64,000 bases of DNA, from positions 19,300,725 to 19,364,724 of the forward strand of contig OX419344.1 of NCBI GenBank assembly GCA_948470475.1. Reading direction: 5' to 3'. This DNA is from Galaxea fascicularis (lineage: Eukaryota; Cnidaria; Anthozoa; Scleractinia; Euphylliidae). Under the pieces are notes generated by a model. The model was not told where the DNA came from. It did no database searches and saw only the letters and a program-made list of their open reading frames with translations. Shown piece by piece: positions 4,838 through 50,613 of this stretch. Both the position numbers and the translations under genes were made by a program. Numbering within the stretch: the first letter of the stretch is position 1; every line of letters begins with the position of its first letter.

Positions 4838-5038
4838 TCAATCTGCCTTGATTCGCTGCCTTGTCATGCGATAAATGATGCTATCACTCCCAGGGTCCAT
4901 GTACCACATGATCAAACAAATAACATATAATGACAAGACTAACACCACAACAAGCCACAGCCAGATGTTGAATATTATAGGATAGTCTTCGGAGTATACA
5001 GCTCCCAAGTTGACCTTTTTCAAGTCCGGTGGGTCAGC
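4838..5038 (-). CDS. ATP6AP2: ATP6AP2 last exon: membrane segment and cytoplasmic tail
   Basis: This 66-residue terminal exon begins after a long pyrimidine tract and AAG acceptor. It encodes a short juxtamembrane stretch, a 25-residue hydrophobic helix (from IIFNIWLWLVV to IMW) and a 19-residue tail containing MDPG, DSIIYRMT and Q.I. The tail is the signature of the family and is nearly the same in human, so it alone identifies the gene. The stop is TGA at 4838-4840. Confidence 0.95.
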   Translation of the reverse strand, partial: ADPPDLKKVNLGAVYSEDYPIIFNIWLWLVVVLVLSLYVICLIMWYMDPGSDSIIYRMTRQRIKAD

Positions 5039-17000: not shown

Positions 17001-20000
17001 TGATTCAGTGCCCATTTACAAAGTATTTGTCTCACAGGGGAGAAATGAAATTGACTGAAGTAGAATAGCTTCAAAGTAGGATTTACGTTAAAAAATCCTC
17101 AAGCTTTTTTCTAACCATTTCAGTCTTGATAAGTTCCAACCTTTTGGCAGAAGAGTTTTATCAAAGAGAGAAAACCTAAGGTGCATCCTGTAGACTGTTG
17201 TCTCCGAGAAACGTTTATGACCAGGCTGTGGTAGAAACTGAATTTCTGTGTACTGTCTTAGAGTCCATTTCAGAAAGGAATGGAACACAATGAAACTGAA
17301 ATTCTGTCTGTCTTTAGAGTGGTGTGTAATGAAAGGTAGACAAGACTGTGATTGTGTGTGGATCATACACAAGTTAGATTTTAGAGAGGCTATATTATCT
17401 GTTAAAATAATGCACTAAGGGGACGAAGGTAAGAAAGAATAGGATGTTATGTAACCATCTGTGGGACCCATAATGACAGGAACTTGACTCCAAGCATTTG
17501 TTTTAGAGTGGTGTCTACTATAAAAGACAACATATGAAAGGATTGAATTGTGCAAGTCTGTGAGAATATAGTGAGTGTCTATCTCGAAGAAGTCTGTTCA
17601 AACTTAGTGTCTGATCAAAAGAGCCTCAGTATCGAAAGTTGAAATGAGAGATAAAAGCTTGATTTAAGACTGCATCAACACTATATTTGTTTCTACATGT
17701 AGCAAAGGTGGGTATCTGTTGGTGATAACATGCAGAAACGAGAGACAAGGATGGACATAGCCCATGTGTCCAAATTAAAGAGGCAAAAAAACACAAATAG
17801 AATCACTGAGTAGAGGCTTGTGATTGAAACAGATCACAAAAAAGGACCGTGACAAGGATTGGCAATTTGTATCTGCCAAAAGGATTGGAAAACAAAGTAA
17901 ATGAATTAAAATGATAGGGTCTGACTTTGATCTTTGTTAGGTGCATGCCTTTGCGAGGGGTCCGTCTGACAGAGACATCTGCCTAATGAGGTGTGTGTTT
18001 GTGTAAAGGAAGTCTCAGAAATAAATCAAACATAGCAGGATTGACACTGTAGGCAAAGGGTGAAGTGTCTACCATTGATTTCTATTCCTTGGCACTGGCC
18101 AATCAATCCAGTCAGTTTTCAGTTAGTAAGCACCAAGCTGAACACCTGCTTTTCTGCTGGTCTTTGGAAATTGTTCAAAATGGAGCAAACTATGGTTTTC
18201 ATGTGCTGCTGCGAAAGCAATGTAAATGCGTCATCAGAAAATTTATCTAAAACAGATGTCTCTCACTGATAGTGCAACAAAGAGATGTTCTATTAAAGTA
18301 CTTGGACAAATTAGCCTATATACAATGTATGATGAAGATTACTGCTCATTGCTTTCCATATTGAAAGAGATCAATTCATTGAACTGTTAGGGTGTGATAT
18401 AGCTAATTCCATCTTACATTTCAGTGCATTGTTGCATTTATGCTGTGCAGTGCAGTAAAGTGCAAGAAAGTTGTGATCCTGGTGGGAGGTGGTTATGTGT
18501 GCATGAGAGGGACAGTTTAATGCTACTTTGCTGTGCATTTGAGCAAGTTACTTATTAATTAATTACTGAACATAAAAGAGAATTGCCTGATGACAAAACT
18601 CTACCTAAGAGCAAAATGAATTTGGATGTGAAACTCTAGAATTATTTATTGCCATTGTTGGAAACTTTGAACACAAAAACTAGAAACAGGAGGGGAAATT
18701 TAGTGTTCTAAGTAAAAAAGACCCTGGAGGAAAGTCAGATAACAAATAAAGACAAACAAAAATTGTGTTGTTCAGTCAAATGCTCCCTCAATGTGTCCTC
18801 CTCATGTTCTGGCAGAAACCTAAGGCTATGTGATAACCTTTACAGCATAGGCACCATTTACTGAGAACTAATGAAGGAAGTTAAAGGTGTGTTGTACATT
18901 GGCTGCAACCTTTACTTATTTGACAGCAAATCAAAATGTACATATACTACAATGAAAATCAAACCCTTAGAAAACTATCCCGTACTAAATTGTGATTATC
19001 AAAGTGAAGCACTGCATTAACCAAACGTGTCGTTAACATACTTGTTCACCCAATGTGGTTACCGGTACTTATGTCCTTAGAGAGTGAAAGACCGGGTTAT
19101 AAAGTCAAGAGCAATCACTGATCAATTTGATACATTGTATATATAAAGATAAAACTCAAATTCCATTCTTTCAACATGATGCCTTACATGCAGCTGTTAC
19201 ACAGAGTCAACTGAACAAATGTACACCGTGTTCATTTGAGTATGTTTCTAGGTGTGTGTTTGTTTCACTTCTTGAGTGTTTTGTACCTCTGATCCATGTC
19301 ACTAATCTATTATTATATCCTGCAAATAAAGACCTTCTGGCATTTTTAACTCCAAATAGTTCTTTCTGAAGGTCTGTACCTTTTCTTATTTATTAGTTGA
19401 CACGATTTTGTATTACCAATAAGAAAACTCAAGGTACAATAAAGACGTTTTTTGTTTGACACAACAAAGGCAATCTATTTCCACATGGCGTTTCATTCAC
19501 ATACCACGAAAAATAATAGTAATGAAGATAAGAGCAACGAAAATCCCAAAGGACCATCACGTTGATAATGAATTCAGTAGAACACAGAATAAAATCCCGG
19601 TGACGGTGATCTTAATTAAATCTAATCCGTGAGAAATCATGCTATGTTTCATCCTCTACCTACGGCTAAACGATATGAAGGTAAATTGAATTAGACGTAG
19701 AATCAAGCTTGAAAGCTAATGGTGGATCGGATCGTTCATTACCTAAAAAGAAGCGAACACCGAACACAACGTTCGGAGTTGAATTGACATACCTTTTCGG
19801 CTTCTTTAATGACTAAGGTTTCTTTTGCATCACTCAGTAAACTTGATGCTGCAGTTTTAAAACAGAAAACATAACAATACTGTAAAGGACAATAATTAAA
19901 GTATCGAACGCACCCGAAGATCTCATCTTGGGAAAGGTGGAAAGGTGTCTCCTAGCTCCGCGATCGATTGATTGAACAGCCTCATTTCAGGAGAATTTTA

Positions 20001-20330
20001 GCGAAGCAATACTTTCTGGCATGGTCTAAATTATGTTTGAGATACTGCTACCACAAAAATTACAACTCGAAAACCTTCATTTACAATCTAGGTTTAGTGT
20101 AAGAAACATCCACGGGACGTAATAGATTACCGTCATGAAATAAACAAGGGAGTAGAATTTCGACGGATATTTCGTCCTAGAAAAGGCAAGTTACCTACAC
20201 TTCATATATCTGATTGATAGACATATTAAAAAGGAGTATTGTTGCAGTAAATTTCACATTTTAAGTTCACGATTTTACCTGTTGAAACCAAAAGAAGACA
20301 CAAGCATAACAGAATCTGCTTATCCGCCAT
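4838..20330 (-). CDS. ATP6AP2: ATP6AP2 (prorenin receptor / V-ATPase accessory protein 2), 15 exons
   Basis: Single-pass type I membrane protein that in animals assists V-ATPase assembly, Wnt and planar-polarity signalling and, in vertebrates, renin binding. My model, in transcript order: 20279-20330, 19793-19848, 14408-14542, 13611-13698, 12677-12752, 12052-12091, 11767-11895, 10598-10726, 9072-9125, 8499-8570, 7657-7734, 7211-7281, 6452-6578, 5852-5923, 4838-5038. Every junction has GT/AG and matching phase, giving 1,380 nt and 459 residues, against 350 in human. Residues 1-17 are a signal peptide. About 82-110 match the human segment around FHRP. About 236-326 match the C-terminal half of the ectodomain (PDIFTLSFSSL, RRYGD). 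Residues 414-438 span the membrane, followed by the diagnostic tail with MDPG and DSIIYRMT. Exons 2, 13 and 14 have no clear human counterpart, so those joins are less certain. The human furin motif RKTR was not seen. Confidence 0.9.
5586..5717 (-). other. Possible alternative terminal exon with a membrane helix
   Basis: A 43-codon frame on the minus strand carries a long hydrophobic run (KFVVCLAFVAVPIVLFFALF, then FCVGILWWK) and stops eight residues after it. An AG dinucleotide lies directly before it (5719-5718), and its phase matches the end of ATP6AP2 exon 14. Splicing to it would swap the normal tail for another membrane anchor. The pyrimidine tract is poor and no homologue is recognised, so this may be a chance frame, a pseudo-exon or a remnant of another membrane protein. 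Confidence 0.25.
6751..6862. repeat. CCCACCCCTCCCC foldback element, copy 1
   Basis: A short element with inverted ends, GGGCAAGTGCGTACCCACCC at the left and GGGTGGGGGCAGAGTTGCCC at the right. A second copy with its core inverted lies at 15112-15220. Both are in ATP6AP2 introns. Confidence 0.75.
8745..8790 (-). repeat. SINE fragment related to 49185-49440
   Basis: TCAAATGAAGACTGATCCTC followed by GCAGTTGTGAACGCAATTAA is the inverse of the 3' flank at 49350-49390 with few changes. ATP6AP2 intron 9. Confidence 0.8.
10379..10580 (+). repeat. High-copy dispersed element (GATCACCAGGGATCAGTTGA family)
   Basis: A roughly 200-bp element with ACCAGCACCTAACTTCTC near the start, GGAATGATCACCAGGGATCA in the middle and GAGAGTAAAGGGG at the end. 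Related copies in the window: about 31588-31840 (inverted), 54810-54965, 7395-7630 (inverted), 15350-15530 and 47413-47615. Similar elements are abundant in coral genomes, which supports the taxonomic guess. It ends only some 18 bp from the donor of ATP6AP2 exon 8. Confidence 0.75.
10962..11311 (+). repeat. Direct duplication of a 120-bp block around a poly-G tract
   Basis: A block beginning TTTTTGCACGAGTTTGACAG and ending GTGCGGAGGCTTTGCA occurs at about 10962-11085 and again at 11190-11311, with very few differences. Between them are 18 consecutive G (11091-11108) and a second block (11113-11185). That second block (AAGAAGGTCTCAAGAAAGGT onward) recurs at about 12480-12552, again behind a G-rich tract. 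All copies are in ATP6AP2 introns 6-7 or 5. Confidence 0.9.
11381..11425 (+). repeat. (AATG)n microsatellite
   Basis: About eleven AATG units with one slip. It follows the duplicated block of 10962-11311. Confidence 0.95.
12435..12482 (+). repeat. G-rich tract in ATP6AP2 intron 5
   Basis: Contains TAGGGGGGAGGGGGGAGAGG, meeting the four-G-run rule for a quadruplex. It precedes the B' copy of the duplicated block, just as the 18-G tract precedes block B at 11113, so the G tract was probably copied together with the block. Confidence 0.7.
15112..15220. repeat. CCCACCCCTCCCC foldback element, copy 2
   Basis: Shares the terminal GGCAAGTCCGTACCCACCCC and the AACCCAACATTAACACT core (inverted relative to 6751-6862). 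The right end is more diverged (GGGAGGGAGAGGTGCGTAGT). It lies in ATP6AP2 intron 2. Confidence 0.75.
16115..16280. repeat. Foldback element, diverged copy of the 55806 family
   Basis: Starts GGCTACTTTCGAAATATCAA and runs through GAATCGCAAGGAATGTGAAA, both also found at 55806-55976. The right arm is degraded but recognisable (CCCTCTGGGTGTGGCTATTA). Confidence 0.85.
20279..20330 (-). CDS. ATP6AP2: ATP6AP2 exon 1: start codon and signal peptide
   Basis: The exon encodes MADKQILLCLCLLLVST and leaves one base for the next exon. The core after Lys4 is almost purely Leu, Cys and Val, a typical cleaved signal peptide, as expected for this secretory-pathway protein. The start codon sits in AAGATGGCGG, a good animal initiation context that is also a YY1-like box. 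The donor is CAG|GTAAA. The start is chosen because the hydrophobic core follows at once and the next exon joins in phase. Confidence 0.85.
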
Positions 20331-20707
20331 CTTGCGATCGGTCACGAGATTTTTAGTTTGCGGGCTCAAAGTAATATCCCCTGTAGGTAGAATTAATTTT
20401 CTTCGCGTTCCAGAGTTTTGATAAATTCTTTTTAATATTAGTTATTTCAAGTTCATTTAGAGCTTTCAAAGCCAGAAAACTTCAAAAAAAAGTATTCTGC
20501 ATACGCAGAAATTTTTATGTAATTTAAAGAGGGTTTAATCTTGTTGTAAAAGATAAAATACATTGGTATCAAAATACAAATTCTCGCAAGCTTACATGAC
20601 GTCACGCCAACGGAGCAAGCGATCAAGCGAGACAGTTCTCTCACGACCTCTGATGTTGAAGTACGTTGGTCTCTCATTGATAAATCTTTGGTTTCGTAGC
20701 CTAAGCA
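20331..20707. promoter_or_regulatory. Bidirectional promoter between ATP6AP2 and BCOR
   Basis: The 377 bp between the two start codons must hold both promoters and both 5' leaders unless an upstream non-coding exon exists. It contains a perfect CRE palindrome TGACGTCA at 20597-20604. A YY1-like CCGCCATCTT at 20324-20333 overlaps the ATP6AP2 start. No TATA box is placed convincingly on either side. On the BCOR side an upstream ATG at 20653 opens a 20-codon frame that overlaps the main start out of phase and could lower translation if it is in the transcript. Confidence 0.7.
20597..20604. promoter_or_regulatory. CRE palindrome TGACGTCA in the shared promoter
   Basis: Perfect 8-bp palindromic cAMP-response element, the site bound by CREB/ATF dimers. 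It lies 104 bp before the BCOR start codon and 267 bp before the ATP6AP2 start codon. Because it is symmetric it could serve both directions. Function is inferred from sequence alone. Confidence 0.5.
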
Positions 20708-20799
20708 ATGGCTAGTGACAGCGATCGTAATCTTTGGGATGCCATTGGTTTGGCAAACAACACCGATCTCTCATCGACACAAGAAAAAGAGCAATCGCT
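20708..20799 (+). CDS. BCOR: BCOR-like exon 1, start codon
   Basis: Thirty codons plus two bases starting MASDSDRNLWDAIGLANN in the context AGCAATGGC, ending at donor CT|GTAAGG. It joins exon 2 in phase if the second AG of a tandem CAGAG acceptor is used. No known domain. The start was chosen as the first in-frame ATG whose frame runs to a strong donor. It is short, acidic and polar, like the N-termini of many disordered nuclear proteins. Confidence 0.6.
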
Positions 20800-23700
20800 G
20801 TAAGGGGAAGACTTATCGTTTACGAGCTCTCACGCTTCGATCGAGGACTTGAGCCTCGTGCCTACTTCGTGTTGAATATTCTGTTGTTTATTTCTCCAAG
20901 GTGCAACAATGGAACTCCGGAACGTGCTTTAGACAGTACAATGACTGGTACTATACAGGGAACGTCGCTCGGTCGAAAGGTAACTTAACTGTAGTGGGAA
21001 AATGGGTAGGACCTTGCTTGACCCAAACCGCCGCGCCATCGTGAGTGAGATCATGTGCTTTTGTGAATTCCATAACATTGATGCAATTGGAAGTCAGTCT
21101 TGTGTAATTTAAGTGCGATAGAATGGGTAGACTGCTCGACTACGCTTTCACGACCAGGAACACATGTCTGAACCGAAAGCGAAACTCACATCCCGTCGTG
21201 TGTCGACGTGTGTTTGTAGGTCGTAAGAAGGGTGATGTTGGTTGACATTGTATAAAACAGTGTTTAACTACTATAAATGCACTCTGTGCTTTAGTGTAGC
21301 GTGTGTCAGTCACCATATTCGCTTGTAGACATCTGTGTGTTATACACACGCCCTTCGAAGAACGATATAAAAATGCAAAAGGTACGCGTTGCAACCTTTT
21401 GACCTGAAGCCATTCTAGAGAGCATCGTTCGTGTACGGTTCGCTTTTACGATGCTCCACTGCTTCTAACGCGCCTTTTCAAGAAAATTTAATCTCTCGAG
21501 GTGTTTGTCTTCACTAGAATGACGAATAACAGTTTAAACGTAGTCAAATTAGTGACGAACTCGGACGTAAGTTGGGGAAAGTGTTCGACGTTCCCTCTAT
21601 GCCCACAGAGCTCACGAATACGAGTATTCGATAAACAGTTGTGCGCTTTATCTTCGCGTATTAATATTCATCATTGCTGTAATCAAAACTTGTATCGTCT
21701 CTCGAATACAGGGCCATTTTGTTTGTGTTTTATGACGTTTTTATTCAAGAAATCTCCCGGACGCTTCCAATGAGCTCGCTCCAGGTCTAACGCCATCTTA
21801 ACCTGCAACGTTCGATCGCGGATCGGAAATCTTTGTATTTAGTTGACCGCCAACTGATTTAATCTCTTGTTGTTTGTCGTTCAAACGATCATTCCTGTTC
21901 AGCTTAGAGAAAGGGTAATTCTCGACTTTTCCATCCTCTATCAAATTGCGTCTGGAAGTCGTACAACTCGATTCAATCAAACTCTGGCAGTATCACTCCA
22001 TATGTGCAGTGCTTACAAATCGCCTCGTTCGGCTTCCGACTCCTACCTTCATAACTGCGACTTTACGAAATGACTTCTCCGTTCAGTCGTAAGGTCCCTA
22101 TGATGAGCACTATTCTTTCATTCTCTACGGCGAGACGTTAGGTGTAAAGCCACGAAGTGAAGATCCATCGGACGTCTACCCGTCTGCCTTGAGATTTCCT
22201 ACGGTAGGGAGGCAACCCTTGGAATGGGACAAAGACTGAATTTGATCGGGAAGTGTGTTTCGATCAGATCACATTGTTAAAATAGTGTGGTCAGCAGATT
22301 TTAATGAAACAGCCTTTCGGTGAAATGCCTGTATTCCGAAAGCCTTCTTGTCTGAGATACGTAGCTTTAGATGAGTTAAAAAACTCTGTTGTCGACGGAA
22401 CGATCATGAGACTCCAGTCCCGGAATTCTAGCTTGTGGTGTCTAGGGACGCAATGAGGATTTCATATACGTTACTTGTTGTCTTTAGAGAGGCATAAACA
22501 TCGGCCCGTTGTTTTCGAGTCCTTAAGTGTTTTATACTACTTAAAATTGTGGTTCAAATGGAAGTAACGGAAGCCCTAGCCTTGAGAGATGTAGGTTTAA
22601 AAATAAACGAAAATTGTGTTTCATAGATAAACTTCCTTTACTGGGCTTTTACAGTCTTATACACTCAAACGGTTATCATAGCAGACAAATAATTCTTAAC
22701 GGTAAAACTACAGATGTAGTCTCCACTTTTCGTCCTATGTCTTCTTTCAGAGAATTATTATGTTTCGACAGATGTATTTACTCTCGATTTACATTTATAC
22801 CAAGTCCTCTGAGTTGGTCTGCTTCCCATGACAGCTAATCTAATGATTTAATGACGTTTTTCGTTCCGATTTAAGTGATCGTCTGTTAGAGGAATCTGTG
22901 TTGCTTTGTATTTAAACGCCACAATTTTTAACTCTTTAAACTCTAAGATCAAAACTGAAATCCTCATTTGTTACCTCTGTAAGAGTAATGGGGAGACATT
23001 GTTAAAATATCAAGTAAATTCACCTTGTGGGATAAATTCTCGTGACCACACTGTTTTATAATTCGTAGATATTACAAGGAGAAATTTGATGCTGATCACT
23101 CCTAGGTTTTAAAGTGTTAAACCTCTCGCTATCAAAGGTCAAAATATTACTGTGAAAGTTGTTGTGCTTTAGTAGGGTTTTGTTTATATCTCCACAAAGG
23201 CTTCAACAGTCGGTAAAACTGACTTTTAAGGGTGAAGTTTCAGCATCATGAAGAAACTTCCCGTGGTGTTGCTTATGCAATAGATAGACAGGTGTTTCTA
23301 CTTGGGCCCACTCTTATGGATTTGTATGGTCAGGTAGTTGGTGCTGACGTAAGGAAGACGTAAGCATTCTGTTTTGTTACATGCAAGTGCGTAAAACTAT
23401 TTCTTAGCCAATTTAAATTGTTGTTAATCTCGTTACTAAGGCCCCCTTCAGTTATCGGTAGTTAAACCTTTAAACTCTATGATCAAAATTTAAATTCTCA
23501 TTTGTTGTCCTACATATTTCCTGTAGAAGTAAAAGGGAGAAATTGTCAAAGTATCAAGCAAATTCATCTCAGTTGTGTGACCTGTCCTTAATTCTCGTGA
23601 TCACGCTGTTTTATAAATCGTTGATATTACAAGACAAGCATGATGCTTTTTGGATTTAAAACGTTCAATTCTCGTGACCACTCTGTTTTATAAATTGTTG

Positions 23701-26700
23701 ATATTACAAAGAGAAATTTCTGGTGATCACTTTTAGGGTTTAATTAATAGCAGAGCCCGGTAGCCCCTGCGGACTTACTTTGCCTTTGGGCGACCAGGAA
23801 ATACCGGTTTTTGCACCAAACTTTTACAGCCTTGGTTGTCTTTTGCGATCGCAAACGCGGAAGCTGAACTTGTTAGGAATGACAAAAGATAGATATCTCA
23901 AATTTATTGAAGTTAGTCTTGCCATTACCAACAATTTCAATTGCAGGACTTGCGAGCTTTAATGAGGCACGCAAAAAGGAAAAATGCTGTATGAAAACCA
24001 GATTGGGGGAAGCATGGCTCGTTGAAAAGTGTTTTGGTTAGGAAAAGCTGACATGACAGAGGCCAGTAGGCCAGTGTGTTTAAAAGTTAGTCTCGAGTCC
24101 TGGCACTTGAGAATTTATCAACGAGTAAAATAGCAAAGTAACAAAGTACTCAGTGAAGTACTGCATGGTACTGAGTTTCTATTTTCGTTGTGATACTTGA
24201 GATGACCAGGTTGGCTTTCAAGAAGACTGAAGTAGGCTTGATACGTGTTTTACTCGTTCATGTTCAAGACAAGGTGGTGACTTGGTCACTATCGTTTTTA
24301 ACGTTTTTTAGTTGATATTGATACCTCTGCTCATTTACAAATTGCTTCTGGAAAGGCGAGGTATTAAAATGAATTTAGTAGGGAAAGCGAGCCATGCCTA
24401 ATTTAAGCGGTGAGGTGATGTTGAAATGGGGAATCAGTGGCAGTTAAATCACGTGCACAACTCTTTCAATGGGGCGAGGAGAAGCAGTCTATTGGAAGGG
24501 GGTGAGGTCGGGTGGGGGGCGTGGAAAGGTGGAGGGGGGCAGTGTCAGGCGTCTATTTTGAAGTGAAGACACCATTAATCAATCAACATTTGTGGATGCA
24601 ATATGATCGTTCAGTATCAAATTTGCAGGGCTATTAGCATTGACGTAAACGGCCAGTTTTGTGCAATGTATGAAGAAAACAAAATGACGATGATTAAGCT
24701 CGATAACGAAATGTTCAAGACGGAATGATTAGCATATCACAACTTTTGGAGTTGCAAATGTACATTATCTGTAACATTGTGTATCACGGTTGGGATATTT
24801 ATGATGGAGATGCTGAGTGACTCGGGGTATTCTTGGCTATGCATTGGGACTTGCCTGCTATAAATTTCTACCAGTACCCAACTTTTCGTCATTTCTATCG
24901 GTTACCTCTCGAAATTAATGAACAGAGAGACGCTGAGAAAGATACAGTAGCTTCCATACGAGCAGTGATGGTGATTATCTATAGTTAAAAAAGTTTAAAA
25001 TTTGATGACCGTTCTTCTCTGTTCTCTGTTGGGATTACTTTTCGGAAAGGGAAGACTAAGAAGAGCATGGTCTGCGAGTGGTTTGGCCACGGGCGATCGT
25101 ACAGTACAGAAGCATTTCTTATTAATTATCATATTATCAACGATAAATATTACATTTTTGTCATTCAAATGCTGTATCTATGGTTGTAATGCCCCCTATA
25201 GTGTTATTCAGCCTTTGTCTGTCTTTTATTATCGGAATTCAATTAAATACTAGGCGCTAAATGTCATGTATCTGTGACAAACTGTAAGAGGTAAAGTAAA
25301 CATAGAGACGCAGCACCTGCCTGTCAAGGATTTATTGGTTGTTCAAAGCGACAAATTTGAATAACGGACAGAAACTGTGTGAAGGGGAAGTTTCTGACTC
25401 TAATTTGTGTGGCCCTGAGCGGATATTACACAATTGCCGGGTGAAGATCATTGCGTGACAGTTAATAACGTTTTTTAGTTGTTGAGGAAGGCCTTCCGTC
25501 GAACACTTGGGTCCGGGGTTCCCTCCCCGATAAAAGGGGCTTGAGTGCGGGCTCATCTCCTGAAGCAGAGGCTAGGATTCGAGCCTTCAGTTGTACCCTA
25601 AAGGAAGTATTAGTTCTACTTATCTTACAACCATTTAACGGGAAAAGACTAGGATACCTTTCCCGCAAATCTTTTGCATGGTTATGCATACCTTCTCCGA
25701 ATCAAGCTCAACTCAAGCTCGCCTTTTCTTTGAGAGGAAACGTATCAGAGTAATGCATGTGTAATTAATATGGCACCACACTGAAGGATTCCCAAGACTA
25801 GAGGCGCTGCGGGTACTTGAGGTGCTGTGCTTACAATGTACTTGAAATGCTTTACTTACTTGAGAGTGTATCAGACTAATCTGTGAGTGTGACTATATGG
25901 CGTATTGACATGAAGTGTAAGGCCACTTCACTTGTTCGCTCGATTCTTCGCTCCTTTGATTCCTGTTAAACAATTTTGTACATCCGCTGAGCATTGCGTA
26001 ACGTTTGGCATATACTTCGCTTATGAAATAACCTGATTTTCTCACAATGAAACTTTTCAACTAAAATCACGGTCATGTAAGCGGCCAAATGATTTACAGA
26101 AGAGTTCGGAACTTGCTTTTCATAATTTTGTGTGGGATAAATGCGGAACAGATATGTTTAGTAGACGGCTGTTACATGTGACCCAACAAAAACTTTGTCA
26201 TGCGTGGTAACGTTTTCTAACAAATAAATCGAAACGATATACCCACGAGTGGCTTATAATTCATTTTCCGTGTTTAGTGGCCCATAGCCAGTTTGATTCC
26301 CCTCAGCTCGGATACGTGAGCGGAAATGCAGAAATTATGCAAATCCACCATTTCCGCGTTACGCGCCTTCCCTACTCACAGAAATCAGTGTGCGTTCTTA
26401 TTCTTAATGGACAAGCGGGAACCAGGATATAACGTAACGAGGCGCTTGCTTATCAGGGTATTGTGTTTTGTTTCAGAGTGCTGCTGAACCAGACTTGGTA
26501 AGCATTTTGGATATGGTGAGTTGTAGCAAGTGCCCGGATGTACCTGCTGCAAATGGCAGTTATTCAGTTGAGCAAAGGTGAGGCGTAATGTTATAAAGGC
26601 CCCCGCAAACGAGGAAACGTTGCGGAAACATTGTTTCCCGAAATATTTATTGGGTGCGCAAACGAGCAGGAAGCAAAAAATTGTTTTGCTTTCTTGCTGC

Positions 26701-31337: not shown

Positions 31338-34300
31338 ACCCGCTGCAGATTATTGAGCCGATGACGTCAAAAGTGCAGCCCGCTGCAAATTATTGAACCG
31401 TTGACCGAAAAAAACTGAGGACGAAATTGAGTTATTTTATTTTAGGTCTACAAATTTTTGGAGGGTGCGAAATTGTTAAAAATAAAGCTCATTTCTCCTT
31501 TAAGAGTTTGAAAATATTTTGAGTGAATAATAAAGGAATTTTTTCCCTCCTCGACCTGCAGAATTCTTCATATCCTACTCAGCCTCATTCAATAATTGCT
31601 AAATATCAACATTTGTATTCTCCTAACACGTCTCACTTATTTTGTACGTTACATGTAGGGAGAATTTGTATAGATGTTAACTCAACTGATCCCTGGTGAC
31701 CATTTCCTGTAAATTCATGCCCTGTATGCTTGACGAAATAGTGACATGGTAAGGAGAGGATAGATCGTGGTCACCATTGGGAACTAAAGGGTCAACATAC
31801 CAATTATTCATTTGAAAGCTACTAGTCAGTACTTGTAACATGAGTCTGCAGATGGAATTATAAATATTGAATAATGAAATGAAAGCTGGTGAGAGCGTAT
31901 CATCCAGTGGCAATGTTCAAATCTGAAAATCCAAGCTGTGAAACAGCTGCTACTTGTGATAAACTATTGAACACTTTCCTTATCCAAACTGAATGTGTTT
32001 TATTTTATTTTCCTTTGCCTTTAGACAACACCGAAGGCGAGAAAAATATATTTGAACGTGTTAGGATAAACTCGTACATCGACAGCTTGGCACAACAAAC
32101 ATCATTCACTAAAGAAGGAAACGGGGGATTTCCTTTCTCCGATAAACTCCGGCAGCTAACTACAATAAACAAAGAAACCGGCAAAATGTCGACGTCGGTA
32201 CATCCTTTGAGAACAGGCTATGACGCCGTGACTTCTGGTCGTACATTTCAACAGCTTGCGCCAACGAGCGGACCGCATTCTAGACCAGCAGGAAATGTAG
32301 TTTCGGCGAGAATTGTTAATGGTCAGCTCCAGTCCCTTGGAACTCAAGTTATTGCTCCGCAAGAGGTATCTCATGTGGACGCGAACGTAATATTTCCTTC
32401 AGTTACTCCAATAAAGTATGCAAACCCAGCCTCAACGTCTTCGAATATCAATAATTCAAATCCAAATCAGGATGTTTTGCCTGGGTTTAACGCGGTGGAC
32501 GGAAACACAGTTGTTAAAAACAACGGTGTAATTGAGGCGAACTCGACAATTATTCAACCAAACGCGGTGGCAAAACTTAAACGCATAGCATCTGAGAAAC
32601 CGAGTGGAGAGCATGCGCAATCGAATTTGGTGCCAACTCACCTGGTTGGCCCTTTTATAAGTACCGGTCCTCCTCCTCCAAATTCCTACGTTGCCGCTGT
32701 CAGAACTACGCATGGCCAAGCCTTACACAATGGCTTGCAGCTATCGGCGTACCCATCACAATTACAAGCTGTACATTCACCACTTAAGAGACATACATCT
32801 CCTGCAGGATTCCAGCTGGTGCTGCCAGTGCTTACCCCACCATCTCCTGTGGTTAACCGAATAATTTTGCCACAGCCAACAGCTGTAGAGAGGAACGTTG
32901 TATCGACGGATAAACAACTCAATTTGGTTTGCGGAGAAAGACTCGTAGCGTCGCCTGATTTACCAGAGAGAGTATTCCGACCTGTCTCTCCTGCCAGGGT
33001 AGGATTTTATACCAATGCCTCTCCGCGTGTAAGTCAAGAACGTGTTCTATTTCAGGCGCGTAGTCGACATCATAGTTCGCCGTTAGGCGCTCGTCGATCC
33101 ATTTTTACTAGAAAGACTGATATTGACAGAAGGGGCTCGGTGGAGGAGGAACTCGCAGATCAGTCTTATGAATGCGCCTTGCGTGAGTCAGCAAACAGTC
33201 CCGACATTGAAAGGTATCTACGCTGTGAGTCTCCTATGACCGTTCTGAGCTCACCGAATTTCAAATCAAACACTTGTTCAGGTGAATGTTATTCTATGGA
33301 ATCATGTGATAGTCATGTTGATTCAATAGCGGTCTGTCATGGAGAATGTGAAGACATCGCCATTGCAAGTCAACCTGCAGAAAGATGCGAAGATTTTTCT
33401 ACGCCTAAATCGCCTGAAAGGATGTTTTTGGGTGAAAGTGATAAGAGTGCGGAAGCTAGCAAGCGGAAACTCAACAGTGCGATGGTGCGTCGTCTGGAGC
33501 CCAGACTCCCCTCGCCTGTGCGCGAACATAACGGAGGGGACTTGTACCGAGACCCCAGCCAGTTGACTCGCGAAGAAAGAGCGCTTCAAAGAGCCATGAT
33601 GCAGTTTAGTGAAATGGAAATGAAGGAGAAAGCCAAACAAACTAACAAGAAGGTCTCGTTTAAGAGGCGTCTTAGAAAGCGCGGCAAGGTAATGTATTAT
33701 GCCCCTTGCTGCCCTGATGATTCATGAAATAAGTCTTTACCCTGATCTGACTAGCCTCCCACGCAGTCGTATTTCAACTCCTTCCCACGAACGTCTGCTT
33801 ACCCTAAAGCAACATTCCTTTCCCGTAGCTTAGCCAATCACATTTTACCTGCTGAATTCTGGAAAGTGACATCACCCTCACAACAAGAAACAACGGACTT
33901 CAATCGAGCGGTTAGCACTGTCTGCGTGCTCTATATTGAAAATTTCACATTTAACTCACTTCCATTTGGCTGCAATCCAGGAATTCGACAAAGGGAAGAG
34001 CAATTTGCCTACTGGGTATGGTGTTTATTTATGATATTGTTAGCGGGGGGTGGGCGCGGGGGCGGGGAGTGGCGGAGCAAATTGCCTCCGCTTCATAATA
34101 AATTTCACACGCACAGAAAATATGGTGCAGTCAAGGTCACAGTCATTACAAGAAGTCCCAGTGATTTTATAGCTGGGCTGATACTTGCTCTATGTAGCCG
34201 CGGGTAGTCGGTCTAAAATGTAAGCGCTCCATGTAATCGGGCTCTTAGTGGTTGCCAATTACCCCAAAAGAGTAGAACACTGTGCACATTTGAATTTTAA

Positions 34301-43600: not shown

Positions 43601-46600
43601 AGACCGCGCTAGATAGCAACAATGATCGTCGTTCCAAATAGCCGAACGTTTAGAGCTTTAGTCTTTTCATGGTTACTTCTGTTGTGAACTGTACGTACAT
43701 GTCGTTCCACACCCTTGCAACTTAATACAGTCTTTCTTGATCGAATGTTTCTGTTGTAAGCCCACTTGGGGTAGGAAACAGCCAAAGTTCAGAACTTGCT
43801 ACCTGAAAGACGTTCATTGTTCGTCTTTTAAGATGAATATTGTCACTTCTCGGCAAGGCTACTCAGTTTGTGCGTAGAGACAAGCTCGAGTATGATGATG
43901 ATGATGATGATGATGATGGTGATACGTTTATGTGTAATTTTGTAATTATCTTAAATTGAAAGAGTATAGTGGTAAAAAAAGAGCTTCAAGTTGAAGGCTA
44001 ACGATAGATTTCGTTCTTAATGTTATATCCGTGCCTCTTCATTTACTCTTGTTTGTTTGTTTGTTTGATGTTTTAGGACTTCAAGCCAATAGTTCTCGAA
44101 TCTCGGACCCGAGGAAAATCGAAACACACAAATGAAGGTAACGTTCCGTTTAACTAGTCAGTTTAAGGATCACTATTGATTTCAGCATAGCACGTGCAGC
44201 GAGTTTATTTGACATCTGCACGCGCGCAAAATTTTACGTGACCGCGGAAATTGACCCCTACCATCCTTACATGTCGAGACTGTTAAAAGAAAGCTTTGCC
44301 CTTTGTGGGTTTTCAATCACAATTACGTCGACAATCATGGGACCTCGCATAGCAGAAACTGTCAAACTGTATCGTTGCCTATTAATTGTCTCTCTTGATG
44401 GCTTGACACTCGTTTTCTAAGACCGGCGGCATTGAGTTGGTTGGATCTTAGAGTTTGCACAAGGCAACTCGTGTGGGACGGGGGAGTGAAACCGGCTGGG
44501 ACGTGTAACCCGTTCAGTAGAGCCTTGCTCTGCTTAAGCTTGCTCTTATGCCTAACGGGTTCCCTTTAGTGAGCTTGACTTGAAGACAAGATACGCGTTC
44601 CTTCCGGTGAAATACACACGAAAACATCGGTATGAAAAGAGCTTCTTTTGACGTGGTTGTCCTCAGTTCACATTGGCTCCCACGCGACTATTCTCATGCT
44701 GTGCTTGTATTTACCTCTTAAATATAAACCGGGTTGAACAAGAAAGGTTACGATTATTTCAGAGTCGCCACAGAAGACCCCTAAAGCTTCAGAGTTCCCT
44801 TTGCTTGTGGTGGAAAGCGTGAATTCAAAACCCGTTAAGAACAGTGTTATTGCCGAAAACGAAGAAGTTCAGCATTTTGTGGAGAACTGCCTGAAGGCGC
44901 GAGGCAAATGGCAAGTCGGCAGGACTATTGAAGTGGTAAGAGTTTTGGTCACTGTTTGCGGCTTTGCGTCTTGAAAAGAAAGATTAGCAATTCCATGTTC
45001 AATTCTCTTTTAAACACTTTTGTTTATAAATTTCCTTTTCGATTGGAAATCTTATTTGTTTGTGTTTTCTTCTTCAGCCACATGAAGGAAATGATGACGA
45101 TACGCTAAAAGGTGCGACAAAACTTGTTTTGTTTTGATGAAGAGATGAGCTTGGGCTGTGCCTCTTTGATCGCTTGTTTGTTTTCTCTCTTACGACCCTT
45201 CTATTTGATTCTAGAAGCAAGGAAGTTAAATGTGAATCGTAACACTGGAGAAACCATCTTGCACAAAGCAGCCAGACTAGGTTATCATGTGAGTATGGCA
45301 TTTAACTTAGTACCCGATATTTTTTAAAGGGGGGAGAGGGGGGGGGGGGAGAGCGTTCGGGGTTGACTATTCCCTTTATTTCCAGCGCACAGAATGCCAT
45401 CTTATGTACTTGGTCGGCTGCGCACAATTCCCCCCGCCCCTACCCCCACAGCTTTATGAGCAACGCATATTTTGCGTATTTCTTGTTTACATGTTATTTT
45501 CACGCTGTTGGTTTTGCTATCAGAAGCAGAAAAAAAGGCTTGCTTTTTTATTGTTTCCCACACTAGCGATTACCGTCTTTTTCGAGTATTCTCATTCAGA
45601 AATAGTCCCACAAGAACTGGTTGTTAACATCCGTAAATTCTATTTTCCTTTTGCGTTTTGTTGCACTTCTTTTAAAGTTCATTTCCTTATTGGGTCTTGT
45701 CGTATCGTGTTTTTAGTGCCTCGTGTTGCTTCAATCTAGACGCAGGTCAACTGTCTCTTTCTGCTTCTGCCACTTAACGAAACACTTTATTGTATAAAAC
45801 AAATAGATTCCATGTTTCCGCGCGTCTGTTCACTAATACATCACAGACGACGTCAAAATGTGGTAGGAACAAAAACGTGGAATACGAGGCGATAGCCGAG
45901 TGTATCACCGTTGTTCTTACCACATTTTGACGTCTTCTGTGATCTATTACTAAACAGACGCTCGCAACATGGAATCTATTTGTTTTATACAATAAAGTGT
46001 TTCGTTAAGTGGCGCTCGACTGAGACTGCTCCAGATTAAGTTATTTTTCTACAAAGAAACGTTTTTTTTCCTTCTTCTTGCTTTTGGAATTTGGCCACAG
46101 CCTAGGCCAGACTAATCTGGTAAAATGTTCCTCCAAATTTTCAAAACTTTCCGCCATTTTAGAAAAATAGGCAGTCTATGACTGCATGTGGCTCCGACTG
46201 AATAGAAAACCAAACGGGTATTGTGTAGTTTTGAAAAAAATAACTTGGGTAACAAATAGAGTTTATTTCTGACAATTAATGTACCTAATCTGTGAAATAG
46301 ATATTTGTCCAGTATTGCGCAATATAGATGGTTACGCTTGCACTCACTCCACGCCATGACACAAAAACAGAGGGGAAAAGTTTTAAGTGATGACGTCATT
46401 CTTGCGTCTGTCCTCTAAGGACCAATCGAAATGGATGCACAATGTAGCTTATTATATAAAGCATAATAGACAATCGGTATTACTCACTAGCCTTAAGGCT
46501 TAGGGTTATGCCCACTGTCTATTACACACTACATAAAAAGGTTTGTTTTTCGGAGTTTTAGATAAAAGGTCTCAGTTCTCACTGTTTTTGACAATCTCTG

Positions 46601-47968
46601 CTGGTGCTTTAGGAAACAGTCCACCATCATATTCATCAAGGTATAGACCCCAATGCCAAGGACAATGCTGGCTGGACTCCACTTCACGAGGCGTGTTCAA
46701 GAGGCAAAGTTGGCGTGGTCAAAGTTTTGGCGAAGTATGGTGCTGATGTCAATGCGTGCTCTAATGATGGGATAAGGTGAGTCTAAAAGCCCGTTCACAC
46801 GGTGCAATTTCGGTATGGTCACACAATGTTGCCTAGAAGTTGCATGCGATTTTAAATCGTGTGACCGCACCCGCTACTAGTTGTGTTTTCCCTTTAGACG
46901 CTCTCTGATGCCACTGTAACCAAGAATTCTGTCGTGAACCATGGTTGTCGTCCATAACGTTTGCGTTTAAGTTTCCTAATCTCTTTAAGTAAAGATCGGA
47001 GAAGACTTCTGTCTCCATAAGTCGTTTGACCGTAACCTTAAAGGGGCATTGTCATGCTATTGTACCATCACTTTAAAGAGCTTAAAACTGACCAATGCAT
47101 GGTGTAGTTTTGCTGTCAAAGACTGTAGTACTGCATTGACACTATAAACTCCTGTATGCCATCAAAGATGACGAGGATGGAAATGGATTGAAATTTGAAA
47201 AAAACTTGCTGTTTTTTTATTTTCAAAGTTTCACCCTGTGCATTAAAATATTACCACAAAATTGTTATGGTAGCTCTCCCTGCTAAAATTTCATTGCAAT
47301 TCATCTTGCTGATTCTGTAGGAGCATTTTTTGCACGATAACAGGTAAAAGGCAGTTATTTTGGCAGAATTGAACCAAAAACAGCAAAAATCCCGCTGACA
47401 GTGCTCCCTTAACCCTCTGAGTCCTAGAAGTGATTGTGTGACATCTCCTTGTCAATACATTGTCAGAAGATCCAGCAGACAGGTGATAAGAATAGACAGA
47501 TTTATCAGCTAGAGGGTGTTGTCTTGAATAAGCCCATATTCTCTTAACTAACGTGCAAGGAACTGTATAAGAGCTACAAAGGAGAATTAATAATCAGATC
47601 TTGGGAGTTAAAGCGCGAAACAATAACAACGACGACAACAACAACATGACTTGCGCGTTAACTCATTCTGTCCTTTCGTACAACCACCATGATGCCCAAC
47701 TCATCTCTGAGGACTCGTTGTAGTTAATCTTTTGTGACGTCGATTTTGGTGTGTTTTGTTCCAGGCCAATTCACGATGCAGCAGAAGGTGGTCACGTGGG
47801 TGTTCTCAGAGTATTGTTATCGTATGGTGCAGACCCTCTGCTCGCAACGTATTCTGGGAACAGTGCGCTTAGTTGTACCAAAGATTCCAACACACGATAT
47901 TTCTTAGACGGTGCGTAATGTTCGTGGGGTAGATTCCTTGCAATGTGATTGCTTGATTTATAGTGTTG

Positions 47969-48002: not shown

Positions 48003-49228
48003 GGATCGATTAATCGAAAAAAACAAACGAGTTGAATGAGATGTTCCATCACGATAAGTTTAGTGCTTCCTGTGAAATACAAAAGGTTAGCGTCTTCCGC
48101 GCTGCAGCACGTTTACATCACGTTTCAGACTCAATTTACGCCTTGCACGTGAAGAATTAATTAACATAACCTAAAGGATTGAGCGCACTATGAGCATCCT
48201 TGATTTTTCTTGTAAATATTTTTCAGGTTTTCTTGAGGACCTTGATTTAAAGACCTCTTCGGTGTCAGCAACTGAAAGCGAGGTGATGAAACGTTAATGT
48301 GAAACTGTGATCACTGTTGCAAAAGCCTTTTTGGATAGTAGCGAAACTAACAGCCAACCTTTTTCGTTTCTTTCAGGGATGTTGGGAGTTTAGTGGATCT
48401 TGTTCCGTACTTGGTAAGCTGAAAACTATTTTTGTGCCCTTACAATGCAATATAATAGAATGCAATGCAATGCAGTGCAATGCAATACAATGTAGTATAC
48501 TTATTTACAATTAATATAATATAATAGAATGCCATGCAATGCAATACAATACAATACAATGTAGTATACTTATTTAACACCACGTCTGACACTTTGTGTA
48601 TACAAGTCAAATATAACATCTTTGTTTTAACAAATTAAAATATTTACAGTAATTACAGTCTGGTGGTAAGGTGACCTCAAGAACCCAAAGGCTTGTATTT
48701 AACGCCCCTCTCTTGATTGGATTTTTAAGTTATGTTAAAAATAAAGACCAGGTGGGTGCAAGTCTTAACATTGCCTGTAGGGGTGACGAGGGGAAGGGGG
48801 GGGGGGATCAGATTCCCAGCGGACGACGTTATCATGAACGCACAAAGTGGGTGAAAGTGCCTCACTTTTTAGTGGACATGCTTTATTTTTCTCTCCCTAG
48901 CAATAAACCTGTTCGTGAACCTGTTCTGCTTCAAAATCTATGCATATTTTTCATTCATAACCTATCCCCTTTGTTCAAACCATTTGTCTAATTTCCACTT
49001 TTATATTAATTCCACTTCTTTTAACTTAACTTAGCTTAAATTTATCCGTGTCACAGATACAAGTTACAGAGTGCTTAAGTAACATCCACGGAGTTTTCTG
49101 TTTACTTCTGAGGAATTGTACTCAAAGTGGTCGAGAGAGCAGCAAATAAATCGTAATTTCGAAAAAGGTCACTTTTTTTAATTTCAAGAATAATCCTCGC
49201 AGTTGTGAACGCTTTCATCTCTTTCTGG

Positions 49229-49259
<31 letters not shown>

Positions 49260-50613
49260 ATTAGAGCATCGCTCCAGTATCGCGAGGTCACGGGTTCAAA
49301 GCCCCGGTGAAGTCCTGAACTTGTTTCAGGCTTCTTTACGCAACCACATAAATTGCGTTCACAACTTCGAGGATCATTCTTCATTTGACTTCATGTCCGC
49401 AGTTCATATATGATTTACTTCATGTACATCATTCACATTTGTTAATTTATACGGCATGTTTCCATGTTGCGAACATCATCGTCAGTTACAAAGTGTTTGG
49501 AAAACCGATAGAACTAAAACAACAAAGCGAAACATACACAATGGCACGGCCTACTCATCGGAAAAACTGCATTAAAACGGGAAGTATCTTCTTGAGTTTA
49601 TCTCCGCCTGGAATTCATCAACTTCTAACGTCGAAATTGTCTCTCTGTTCAAAAATATTTCCTACTTTCCTTAGATGAGTCCTCGGATCACACTTCTGGT
49701 ATTTTTGAAGGAGTGCCGCTCAGTGACAGCGTCCTTCAGGGAGAGTTTGAGATGTGTGATAGGCCGCACCTCCCAACTTACAACCTTCCCGTGATGATCA
49801 GCGACGATTCAACATCCGGGTAACTAGCAACTGTTGGTTTGTAGAGGCATATGACAACATGTGAATGGCATTTGTTGGATCCCCCAATACCCCTCCTCTT
49901 TCCAACCTTTTCTTCCCCCTTTTATACCACGACGACGACTGAGCCCCTTTGTTTAAATGAAGCTAGTTCATATTTAGAGTTTCACAAGATTTTGTTGTGG
50001 AGAATAGTTTAGGTCGTGTGTCATGCAGACCAGTATACCTTGGATCTGCAGTAGAGTTTGGATAAGGCTACTTTCGTAAATGAAGGGAAGAAATGTAGAG
50101 TTCCCGCATAGAAAACTCCTAAAGGCAAGCAGAAGACCAACATGAAAATTAGCCCGCATTTTTAAAACTGGTGGGAAATGGACCGTTTCTTCCCCGTTCC
50201 CCTTTGAACGTATCACGTCTTGGCAAAGCGAATTTTTACGCCTTTCTTTTTGGCGAAAACAAAGCTAAGTTTAAAATGTCAAATATCAGATTGCAGATGG
50301 CAGCGCTTTCCTTCTAACCTCTTTTCTTTTGTTGCCTTTTTTCAGGCGACGAAATTACATTCTCCTCTCCGACCTTCTGGAACACCTTCGGATTACTAGA
50401 ACGGCTCTGTTTAAAAAAGCAAGGAAGCTTGAGATCCGCGAAATGCCCTGGTCTCAGTTCTTATGCGAAATCGTCGACAAACCCCTGTGTATGGTCCCTA
50501 AGTTTTCCCCACCGGATAGCAGTGTTCAGGAAGGGGTGGCTGAGCTAGTTGCTATCAACTACAATCTTCGCAGACTCCTTAACATAAGAGTGGAAAGCGT
50601 AAATATGACTTGA
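20708..50613 (+). CDS. BCOR: BCOR/BCORL1-like BCL6 corepressor (PRC1.1 subunit), 24 exons
   Basis: Nuclear scaffold of the non-canonical polycomb complex PRC1.1; its PUFD domain binds the RAWUL domain of PCGF1. Exons: 20708-20799, 26479-26577, 28383-28597, 32025-33688, 35244-35286, 35765-35799, 36640-36685, 37027-37112, 37377-37416, 38730-38803, 41554-41593, 41684-41829, 42683-42713, 43518-43582, 44077-44137, 44763-44935, 45078-45111, 45215-45288, 46613-46776, 47765-47910, 48227-48282, 48377-48413, 49675-49819, 50346-50613. The sum is 3,834 nt (1,277 residues plus stop), in phase at every junction. Order: a disordered N-terminal half, the SQLTREERALQRAMM motif near residues 668-685, a basic low-complexity region (691-980), ankyrin repeats (about 984-1105) and PUFD (about 1150-1270). 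Human BCOR is about 1,755 residues. I see no BCL6-binding WVVPGP-like segment. Exons 1-3 rest on splice logic only. Extra cassette exons are possible. Confidence 0.9.
20800..26478. other. BCOR intron 1 (5.7 kb)
   Basis: No gene seen on either strand. It holds three partial direct repeats (about 22935-23115, 23465-23650, 23660-23740) and a G-rich stretch near 24497-24541. A first intron this long next to a shared promoter is a plausible site for enhancers, but nothing in the sequence proves it. Confidence 0.6.
22935..23740 (+). repeat. Three diverged direct repeats in BCOR intron 1
   Basis: The unit runs TTTAAACTCTATGATCAAAA, CTCATTTGTT, GTAAAAGGGAGAAATTGTCA, AATTCTCGTGACCAC, TGTTTTATAA, GATATTACAA. 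It is seen at about 22935-23115 and 23465-23650, with its second half again at 23660-23740. This looks like a tandemly spread intronic or mobile sequence with no coding capacity. Confidence 0.8.
26600..26838. repeat. MITE-like element with GCAAACGAGGAAAC inverted ends
   Basis: Left end CCCCGCAAACGAGGAAAC near 26601 and right end GTTTCCTCGTTTGCGGAGG (26819-26837) are inverse copies. The interior repeats variants of CAAACGAG, GGAAGC and GAAACATTT. It begins about 20 bp past the donor of BCOR exon 2. Confidence 0.85.
30173..30320. repeat. Perfect 65-bp inverted repeat (hairpin) with 18-bp loop
   Basis: Arms 30173-30237 and 30256-30320 are exact reverse complements by direct reading (GGCCATATTCGTATTCTCGG and ATACGAATATGGCC at the outer ends). 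The loop is ACATTTACGTGTGAAAAG. An RNA spanning it would form a 65-bp perfect duplex. Confidence 0.97.
30459..30577. repeat. Inverted repeat with 9-bp loop
   Basis: The arm GTCCGTATTGGGAAAAACTG...CTCTGTCTCG (30478-30511) is mirrored at 30521-30555 with one extra T. Outer parts TGTTATTCA and TGAATAACA also pair across a slightly mismatched GGCC zone. Typical foldback element. Confidence 0.93.
30820..31064. repeat. MITE-like element with about 80-bp terminal inverted repeats
   Basis: The left arm (ATAGACCATTTTACAGTTGT, GGCCTATGAATGGAAGCGAG, GGTGACCTTGTTTTGATA) is matched inversely by TATCAAAACAAGGTCACC, CTCGCTGCCATTTATAGGCC and ACAACTGTAAAATGGCCTAT. The centre is about 75 bp and not coding. 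Confidence 0.93.
31312..31407 (+). repeat. 40-bp tandem repeat, each unit with a TGACGTCA
   Basis: Units start at 31312, 31352 and (partial) 31392. They read ATTGAATCAATGACGTCAAA and ATTGAGCCGATGACGTCAAA, then AGTGCA(A/G)CCCGCTGCA. The first two units each carry a perfect CRE palindrome (31322-31329 and 31362-31369); the third is cut short at TTGACCG. Confidence 0.9.
31588..31840 (-). repeat. High-copy dispersed element, inverted copy
   Basis: Reverse complement of the family at 10379-10580. It carries TCAACTGATCCCTGGTGACC and ACATGTAGGGAGAATTTG. It lies in BCOR intron 3 just before the large exon 4. Confidence 0.75.
32025..33688 (+). CDS. BCOR: BCOR-like exon 4: large disordered exon with ALQRAMM motif
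   Basis: The 1,664-nt exon begins after TTGCCTTTAG and ends at AAG|GTAATG, although the frame stays open to 33727. It encodes about 555 residues rich in Ser, Pro, Asn and Val with no folded domain. Several SP and PSP motifs look like phosphosites. Near the end it reads SQLTREERALQRAMM followed by FSEMEMKEK. Human BCOR has almost the same block (SQLSREQRALQRAMM, then FSELEMKER), in the same place relative to the ankyrin repeats. This is independent proof of orthology outside the folded domains. The last residues are a basic cluster (KRRLRKRGK). Confidence 0.9.
34309..34571. repeat. Foldback element with TCACTAGCGACG ends
   Basis: Left end CTCACTAGCGACG (from 34310) and right end CGTCGCTAGTGAG (to 34570) pair inversely. 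The inside repeats GCTTGCGCTTGTGCTT in both orientations, which makes Cys/Arg/Leu-rich open frames without meaning. Confidence 0.88.
35244..45111 (+). CDS. BCOR: BCOR-like exons 5-17: small basic linker exons
   Basis: Thirteen short exons (31-173 nt) encode the stretch between the ALQRAMM exon and the ankyrin repeats. Composition is rich in Lys, Arg, Ser and Thr with many basic clusters (KKFKRK, KRKRF, KTRRKS), suiting nuclear localisation and disorder. Introns alternate strictly between phase 0 and phase 1, so any neighbouring pair of exons can be dropped without a frameshift. The exon at 41684-41829 has a second in-frame donor at 41817. Evidence for each exon is consensus donor plus acceptor plus phase; single exons could be wrong, but the ensemble is consistent. 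Confidence 0.75.
36085..36440 (+). repeat. Dispersed repeat, copy 1 (with 59095-59455)
   Basis: Shared words with 59095-59455, in the same order: TCTCAAA, CCTCAAAAA..C, AATCG.TGTTTATGTA, ATTCAAACTG, CATTTTGAAAACAAAGCA, CCGAGCT.AAAACA..CAAGCAG and ATGTCACGT at the end. About 75-80% alike by eye. Intron 6 of BCOR. Confidence 0.8.
37549..37612 (+). repeat. (ATT)n microsatellite
   Basis: Long TATTATTATT run interrupted once by CAG. BCOR intron 9. Confidence 0.97.
40292..40964. mobile_element. 673-bp non-autonomous DNA transposon with TTAA ends
   Basis: Perfect 14-bp inverted ends TTAAGGTGATTCCT (40292-40305) and AGGAATCACCTTAA (40951-40964). If TTAA is the target duplication, the terminal repeat is GGTGATTCCT. 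Inside, a block (TAAACGAGCATGGTGACCTA then TTTTTATTG) appears at about 40441 and again at about 40842. No transposase. TTAA duplications are the hallmark of piggyBac-type elements; assignment is an inference. Confidence 0.8.
41046..41454. repeat. About 400-bp palindrome (arms near 200 bp)
   Basis: The left arm from GCCCACAAGAGTTAAGGAAA through TTAGTCTACATGC, TTTATATTTACGCGACAGCA and GAGCCAGTTTTGTGCGCGAG is mirrored by CTCGCGTACAAAACTAGCTT, TGCTGTCGCGTAAATATAAA, GCACGTAGACTAA and CTTAACTCTTGTGGGC. The centre is AT-rich (GCTAATTAGC). Arms are about 90% alike. It ends about 100 bp before BCOR exon 11. Confidence 0.93.
42150..42400. repeat. Foldback-bearing repeat shared with about 7805-8250
   Basis: Inner arms GAATATCCCACGAGTCACTT and AAGTGGCGAGTGAGATATTC pair. 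The right part (ACTATTTTATACCATG, ATGATTGGCTGTATCTTC) matches 7900-8040 (ACTATTTTATACCATGCCAT, CTGATTGGTCGTATTTTCCA), so the two loci carry related elements. Confidence 0.75.
43893..43923 (+). repeat. (GAT)n microsatellite
   Basis: About nine ATG/GAT units ending GGTGAT. BCOR intron 14. Confidence 0.95.
45215..47910 (+). CDS. BCOR: BCOR-like exons 18-20: ankyrin repeats
   Basis: Exons 45215-45288, 46613-46776 and 47765-47910 encode about 128 residues of ankyrin repeats. Recognisable units are NTGETILHKAARLGY, DNAGWTPLHEACSRGKVGVV, AKYGADVNACSNDGIRPIHD, GGHVGVLRVLLSYGADPLLA and TYSG. The human BCOR sequence has the same order, including NAGETLLQRAARLGY, DNAGYCALHEACARG and LLSYGADPTLATYSG. 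The specific ATYSG ending separates BCOR from generic ankyrin proteins. In PRC1.1 this region sits next to PUFD. Confidence 0.95.
45771..46011. repeat. Foldback element with CACTTAACGA ends
   Basis: Arms begin CACTTAACGAAACACTTTAT and end ATAAAGTGTTTCGTTAAGTG. Inner pairs include CAAATAGATTCCATG / CATGGAATCTATTTG and GACGTCAAAATGTGGTA / TACCACATTTTGACGTC. The loop is near 45880-45910. Each arm has an AATAAA/TTTATT, so a poly(A) signal is present on both strands. BCOR intron 18. Confidence 0.95.
47966..48003 (+). repeat. (GATT)n microsatellite
   Basis: About nine GATT units with one TATT. BCOR intron 20. Confidence 0.95.
48446..48577 (+). repeat. ATGCA/ATACA pentamer array with a duplicated flank
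   Basis: Runs of AATGC and AATAC pentamers in two blocks, each followed by ACAATGTAGTATACTTATTT. The whole block was therefore tandemly duplicated (period about 70 bp). BCOR intron 22. Confidence 0.9.
49185..49440 (+). mobile_element. tRNA-derived SINE
   Basis: A tRNA-like head (49242-49314) lies between inverted flanks AATCCTCGCAGTTGTGAACG (near 49192) and TGCGTTCACAACTTCGAGGA (near 49354). A fragment of the flank (TGATCCTCGCAGTTGTGAAC) also occurs inverted at about 8757-8776, showing that the unit is dispersed. BCOR intron 22. Confidence 0.75.
49242..49314 (+). other. tRNA-like sequence inside the SINE, probably not functional
   Basis: 73 nt with an A box TAGCTCAGTTGATTAGAG, a B box GGTTCAAAGCC and near-complementary ends GGCTTCA / TGAAGTC. 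The anticodon arm is damaged: the loop CCAGTAT lacks the invariant T before the anticodon AGT and the stem has a mismatch. It could still serve as an RNA polymerase III promoter. Confidence 0.65.
49675..50613 (+). CDS. BCOR: BCOR-like exons 23-24: PUFD domain
   Basis: Exons 49675-49819 and 50346-50613 encode the C-terminal PUFD (PCGF Ub-like fold discriminator) domain. Markers are LPTYNLPV (human LPCYNIQV), NYILLSDLLEHLRI (human NWLLLSDVLKKLKM) and the closing helix with ELVAINYNLRRLLN. The preceding acidic linker (exon 22 plus the start of exon 23) contains CWEFSGS and DESSDHTSG, matching human TWDFYGS and DESGYD. The stop is TGA at 50611-50613. Confidence 0.93.

Follow-up and report, generated by a model that had tools for sequence, protein, structure and literature searches.

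Gene pairs that share a bidirectional promoter are common, and we know of no claim that most such pairs are conserved between phyla. Conserved ancestral microsyntenic pairs (Irimia et al. 2012; see PMC5429095, main text) are unrelated neighbours, one of them a developmental regulator, for which shared cis-regulation since early animals has been proposed. Such ancient combinations of a regulator with an unrelated neighbour form a documented class, and in a sponge 43 of the 60 unambiguous pairs carried enhancer-like signatures (PMC5429095, main text). Genomic regulatory blocks are defined, in the main texts of PMC5585340 and PMC8851819, by clustered conserved non-coding elements together with long-range enhancers; they span hundreds of kilobases and hold a regulatory target gene together with unrelated bystanders. 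Among cnidarians, microsynteny is reported to be poor in sea anemones, which also show no clear TADs and lack CTCF, and two-gene microsyntenies in cnidarians are not fewer than in bilaterian clades (PMC10719294, main text).

Here we analysed a window of 64,000 nucleotides from the coral Galaxea fascicularis (the whole stretch of DNA, in which all positions below are counted), located on a contig of 26.0 Mb in a genome of 416.6 Mb. In this window ATP6AP2 and BCOR lie head to head with 377 bp between their start codons. Like the ancestral microsyntenic pairs, the two genes are unrelated neighbours and one of them is a developmental regulator; unlike for those pairs, the adjacency beyond this genome is taken from the human gene order. 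On human Xp11.4, BCOR (minus) and ATP6AP2 (plus) are divergent neighbours with a gap of about 0.4 Mb between them. The coral locus also resembles a regulatory block, in that a regulator (BCOR) stands beside a broadly expressed and unrelated gene (ATP6AP2), which fits a target and its bystander, although 377 bp is far from the hundreds of kilobases in the blocks described in the main texts of PMC5585340 and PMC8851819. The arrangement on opposite strands, with under 1 kb between the start codons, is that of a bidirectional-promoter gene pair.

Two complete genes in divergent orientation

Exons were placed by aligning the proteins of relatives to the window, after which phase-consistent splice sites were chosen. 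A preliminary description of the same DNA had named the genes as ATP6AP2 (minus) and BCOR (plus), and Pfam, PDB and the relatives agreed with both identities. Both genes could be modelled as complete on opposite strands, in the divergent orientation proposed earlier, and the limits given for the pair, 4838 and 50613, each proved to be the final base of a stop codon. The DNA had also been regarded as cnidarian, in line with the closest named relatives of both proteins among the matches listed, which were stony corals.

ATP6AP2 (renin receptor, or V-ATPase accessory protein 2; 4838-20330, minus) was assembled from splice sites, Pfam, PDB and the relatives P0001-P0004 as a gene of 17 coding exons, with 497 codons and a stop, reading from the start at 20330 to the stop at 4838 without a single internal stop in the 497-aa model. 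Fifteen of the 16 introns are GT-AG, and intron 5 (12702-11896, minus) is best read as GC-AG (GAG/GCAAGT), a reading that preserves the frame of the relatives. When translated minus-strand stretches were scanned with Pfam, PF07850 was found at the 3' end and pieces of RENR_N upstream; in the assembled protein both RENR_N (E=2e-52) and Renin_r (E=1.4e-28) were recovered. The last exon (4838-5038) encodes the transmembrane segment, the C-terminus and the stop (PF07850, E=1.4e-26), so that the N-terminal domain and the C-terminal transmembrane segment of the renin receptor family are found within one gene. A PDB search with a partial model retrieved the renin receptor (E=1.2e-31), and a protein search gave 12 relatives, including P0001 from Montipora capricornis and P0002-P0004. 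Minus-strand frames at 5.6-6.6 kb, considered as a nested gene, are exons of ATP6AP2 itself. A closer paralogue elsewhere in the genome, which the preliminary description had named as an argument against its interpretation, was absent for ATP6AP2: in a search of the host genome, where the best candidates alone were scored, 12 of 12 matches were exons of this one locus and no second copy was seen.

BCOR (20708-50613, plus) was modelled from exon alignments, splice sites and relatives, and comprises 21 modelled coding exons, with 1233 codons and a stop, from the start at 20708 to the stop at 50613; the exon borders are approximate for exons 4, 8-11 and 13-14. The 1233-aa model has zero internal stops and aligns end to end with the relative P0014 at 61% identity. 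Exon 5, the large exon (32025-33688), contains the motif DPSQLTREERALQRAMMQFSEMEMKEK, which is conserved also in chicken BCOR (Gallus P0070, 67.5% identity over 40 residues), and P0013 is 98% identical over this exon. Ankyrin repeats are encoded by exons at 45215-45288, 46613-46776 and 47765-47910 (Pfam and alignment), and the last exon (50346-50613) holds the PUFD (PCGF1-binding) domain and the stop. On the unspliced plus-strand stretch PUFD scored below the cut-off (E=0.075), with ankyrin repeats found alongside, and in the joined C-terminal 296 aa it exceeded the curated cut-off (E=3.2e-9) together with Ank_2 (7.1e-22). Ankyrin repeats followed by a C-terminal PUFD is the domain order of the BCOR/BCORL1 family.

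The search with the BCOR protein gave 458 relatives, the best 120 of which included P0013, P0014, P0015 (Oculina patagonica) and P0017 (Stylophora pistillata), and vertebrate BCL-6 corepressors stood lower among the matches listed. Pfam did not find PF15808 in the large exon, in P0014 or in P0015, and the large exon is without any Pfam family. Among the matches listed, PF15808 was carried by vertebrate BCOR and missing from the named cnidarian proteins, and it was therefore not taken as defining for BCOR; because of its absence, the coral gene is assigned to the wider BCOR/BCORL1 family. With the BCOR C-terminus as query, the best 60 of 368 PDB matches contained ankyrin and designed-ankyrin proteins and no BCOR among them. 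Relatives of BCOR were confirmed for 0 of 23 pattern matches in viral contigs and 0 of 313 in prokaryote genomes.

The first exons and the distance between the start codons

The short distance between the genes depends on their first exons, which showed an initial mismatch of phase, both for ATP6AP2 (exon 1 versus the exon at 14542) and for BCOR (exon 1 versus the exon at 32025). The mismatches were resolved by extra exons found through the relatives, in ATP6AP2 at 19848-19793 and in BCOR at 20901-20979, 26477-26577 and about 28383-28597, and with the phases mended in this way spurious first exons could be ruled out for both genes.

ATP6AP2 exon 1 (20279-20330, minus; start codon 20330-20328) encodes MADKQILLCLCLLLVST and was placed by alignment with the N-terminus of Montipora capricornis P0001, where the counterpart is MAEKEIIHFLCLFFISTA; its donor is CAG/GTAAAA, phase 1. 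Exon 2 (19793-19848), aligned with P0001, links it in phase with the exon at 14542. The Blast E-values against P0001, 0.37 for exon 1 and 0.13 for exon 2, are weak alone, and the two exons were accepted for their position, order and splice phase relative to this single relative rather than for their E-values. When hydrophobic first exons were sought under a relaxed donor rule, the start at 20330 was one of 14 candidates; a strict donor rule gave none. BCOR exon 1 (20708-20799, plus), including the start codon, was placed by alignment with the N-termini of P0014 and P0015 and has the donor CT/GTAAGG, phase 2. Its peptide, MASDSDRNLWDAIGLANNTDLSSTQEKEQSL, corresponds to MANERDRNVWDVIALPTNADLTSTQPREQSL in P0014 and MAEETVRNVWDVIGLPNNADRAPIQEREQSL in P0015, and exons 1 and 2 (the latter at 20901-20979) matched the N-termini of these proteins with E=1.8e-8 (P0014) and E=1.9e-9 (P0015). 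With first exons backed by relatives, the 377 bp reported earlier is exact (20331-20707).

The interval contains both 5' leaders, and its 377 bp is a distance from start codon to start codon. It has a GC content of 0.36 and a CpG observed/expected ratio of 1.32, and no repeat of it was found elsewhere within the window. From its length we infer that the interval holds a bidirectional promoter. It contains a single TGACGTCA, a CRE-type palindrome, at 20597. This motif is also present at 8256, 31322, 31362, 46391, 57282, 59426, 60113 and 62626, two of the sites being 40 bp apart in similar sequence. Nine occurrences in the window compare with 1.11 expected, and nine was reached by 0 of 100 shuffles; the copy in the interval is therefore uninformative as a special signal.

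Surroundings of the pair

The flanks were examined for 50 kb on either side, where 2 of 10 stretches were partly N, and 10 of the 32 reading frames of at least 130 codons were scanned with Pfam. Six of the ten had a family match. In the left flank these were two matches to dynamin-type GTPases, a piece of a kinase and a Ly6-type match below the cut-off; in the right flank, a ZP-N domain and a GPCR. Within the window, downstream of BCOR and convergent with it, lies a polycystin-1-like gene (52931-62188, minus) with matches to PKD_channel (5.3e-29), Polycystin_dom (2e-28) and PLAT (6.7e-14).

The human genes beyond ATP6AP2 on Xp11.4 are CXorf38, MED14 and USP9X. None of the coral flanking genes identified, in the ten scanned frames and the polycystin gene, is known as a human Xp11.4 neighbour, and the conserved unit, if real, thus looks like two genes and not like a block.

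Possible age of the adjacency

The preliminary description had interpreted the locus as a gene pair kept together from cnidarians to human, and had put forward shared cis-regulation and a compact ancestral arrangement, both of which we treat as hypotheses. Its gene pair, orientation and spacing stand, and the retained adjacency comes down to one genome and the human order; we regard the interpretation overall as plausible. In a genome with scrambled gene order on the same chromosome, the chance of the two genes being immediate divergent neighbours would be of order one in a thousand, a rough figure that combines the fraction of the genome on this contig (26.0/416.6 Mb) with an assumed 30,000 genes. 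Chance adjacency is accordingly unlikely, and inherited adjacency is our best reading; since many windows were read at the first stage, the figure is suggestive and not decisive. Our main reading, to which we give a probability of about 0.5, is that BCOR and ATP6AP2 are an ancient pair, divergent neighbours in the cnidarian-bilaterian ancestor, and that in the coral both are driven by one bidirectional promoter interval. The documented class of ancient pairs and the two-gene microsyntenies of cnidarians speak for this reading; against it weigh the poor microsynteny, unclear TADs and missing CTCF reported for sea anemones, the uncorrelated expression in human regulatory blocks, and the identified flanking genes, which are not known as human neighbours. 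BCOR-ATP6AP2 would then be an ancient microsyntenic pair, either a new one or one that Irimia et al. (2012) already list. No literature joining BCOR, ATP6AP2 and synteny was found in our search, and neither gene is named in the main texts of PMC8851819, PMC10719294, PMC5429095 and PMC5585340.

The pair may also be old without being held by any functional constraint, as one ancestral pair among thousands that by luck was left unbroken, with the short spacing an ordinary compact divergent arrangement. This is a possibility that we take seriously, although we hold it to be doubtful. The motifs sought in and around the interval were unremarkable, as seen for TGACGTCA, and with no known human neighbours among the identified flanking genes nothing points to a protected block beyond the pair, both of which sit well with neighbours that merely persisted. 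However, a head-to-head spacing of 377 bp should be hard to split without damage to a promoter, and ancient pairs are enriched in enhancer signatures (PMC5429095, main text), which argues for a constraint of some kind.

A coincidence, in which corals and vertebrates each brought the two genes together on their own or a recent rearrangement did so in the coral lineage, appears unlikely to us. The comparison includes a single cnidarian, and with many windows read the human order should now and then be matched by chance, but immediate adjacency in the same divergent orientation should arise only about once in a thousand, even if the chromosome itself is conserved. It is more improbable still, and hardly to be expected, that the human order differs from the one given here or that other protein-coding genes intervene, which would leave an ordinary compact divergent pair in the coral; the missing literature on the two gene names and synteny would be in keeping with such an error, but the preliminary description gives the same order and strands for Xp11.4.

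A possible mechanism of retention

In our preferred reading of an inherited pair, BCOR and ATP6AP2 would already have stood side by side and divergent before cnidarians and bilaterians separated. In the coral, one short interval would drive both genes as a bidirectional promoter. The pair may persist since breakage would harm the input that BCOR receives from a promoter or enhancer, ATP6AP2 being a presumed broadly expressed bystander. For human one would have to assume a regulatory block whose target is BCOR and whose bystander is ATP6AP2: if the gap is indeed 0.4 Mb, a 377-bp promoter cannot hold the genes together there, and two different constraints are needed. The two kinds of constraint make different predictions. 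In human regulatory blocks the expression of bystander and target is uncorrelated (PMC8851819, main text), so that co-expression of the two genes is predicted by the shared-promoter model and not by the block model.

It is conceivable, but rather improbable, that the 377-bp interval descends from one bidirectional promoter of the cnidarian-bilaterian ancestor, through which V-ATPase assembly remains tied to a Polycomb corepressor in cnidarians, and that in vertebrates the pair was pulled apart and kept as a long-range regulatory block, the constraint having shifted from promoter sharing to distant enhancers.

Should the adjacency hold across phyla, the pair would illustrate two ways of keeping neighbours, by a shared interval of 377 bp in the coral and across a gap of about 0.4 Mb in human. 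The coral pair comes from a group in which clear TADs and CTCF are reported to be missing (PMC10719294, main text). BCOR and ATP6AP2 are both implicated in human X-linked disorders, and a shared regulatory history, if true, would bear on the reading of Xp11.4 rearrangements.

Additional observations at the locus

In the left flank, pieces of dynamin-type GTPases and kinases follow each other and are partly repeated, which suggests a small local gene family. In P0001 from Montipora capricornis, residues 36-125 are repeated at 293-382 and the C-terminal transmembrane part is missing; the repeat is either an exon duplication or a fault of the gene model or assembly. Finally, within the long intron 2 of ATP6AP2 (17001-19000) the CpG observed/expected ratio falls to 0.07-0.35, compared with 0.7 to 1.2 in most neighbouring windows, and this resembles what gene-body methylation would leave.
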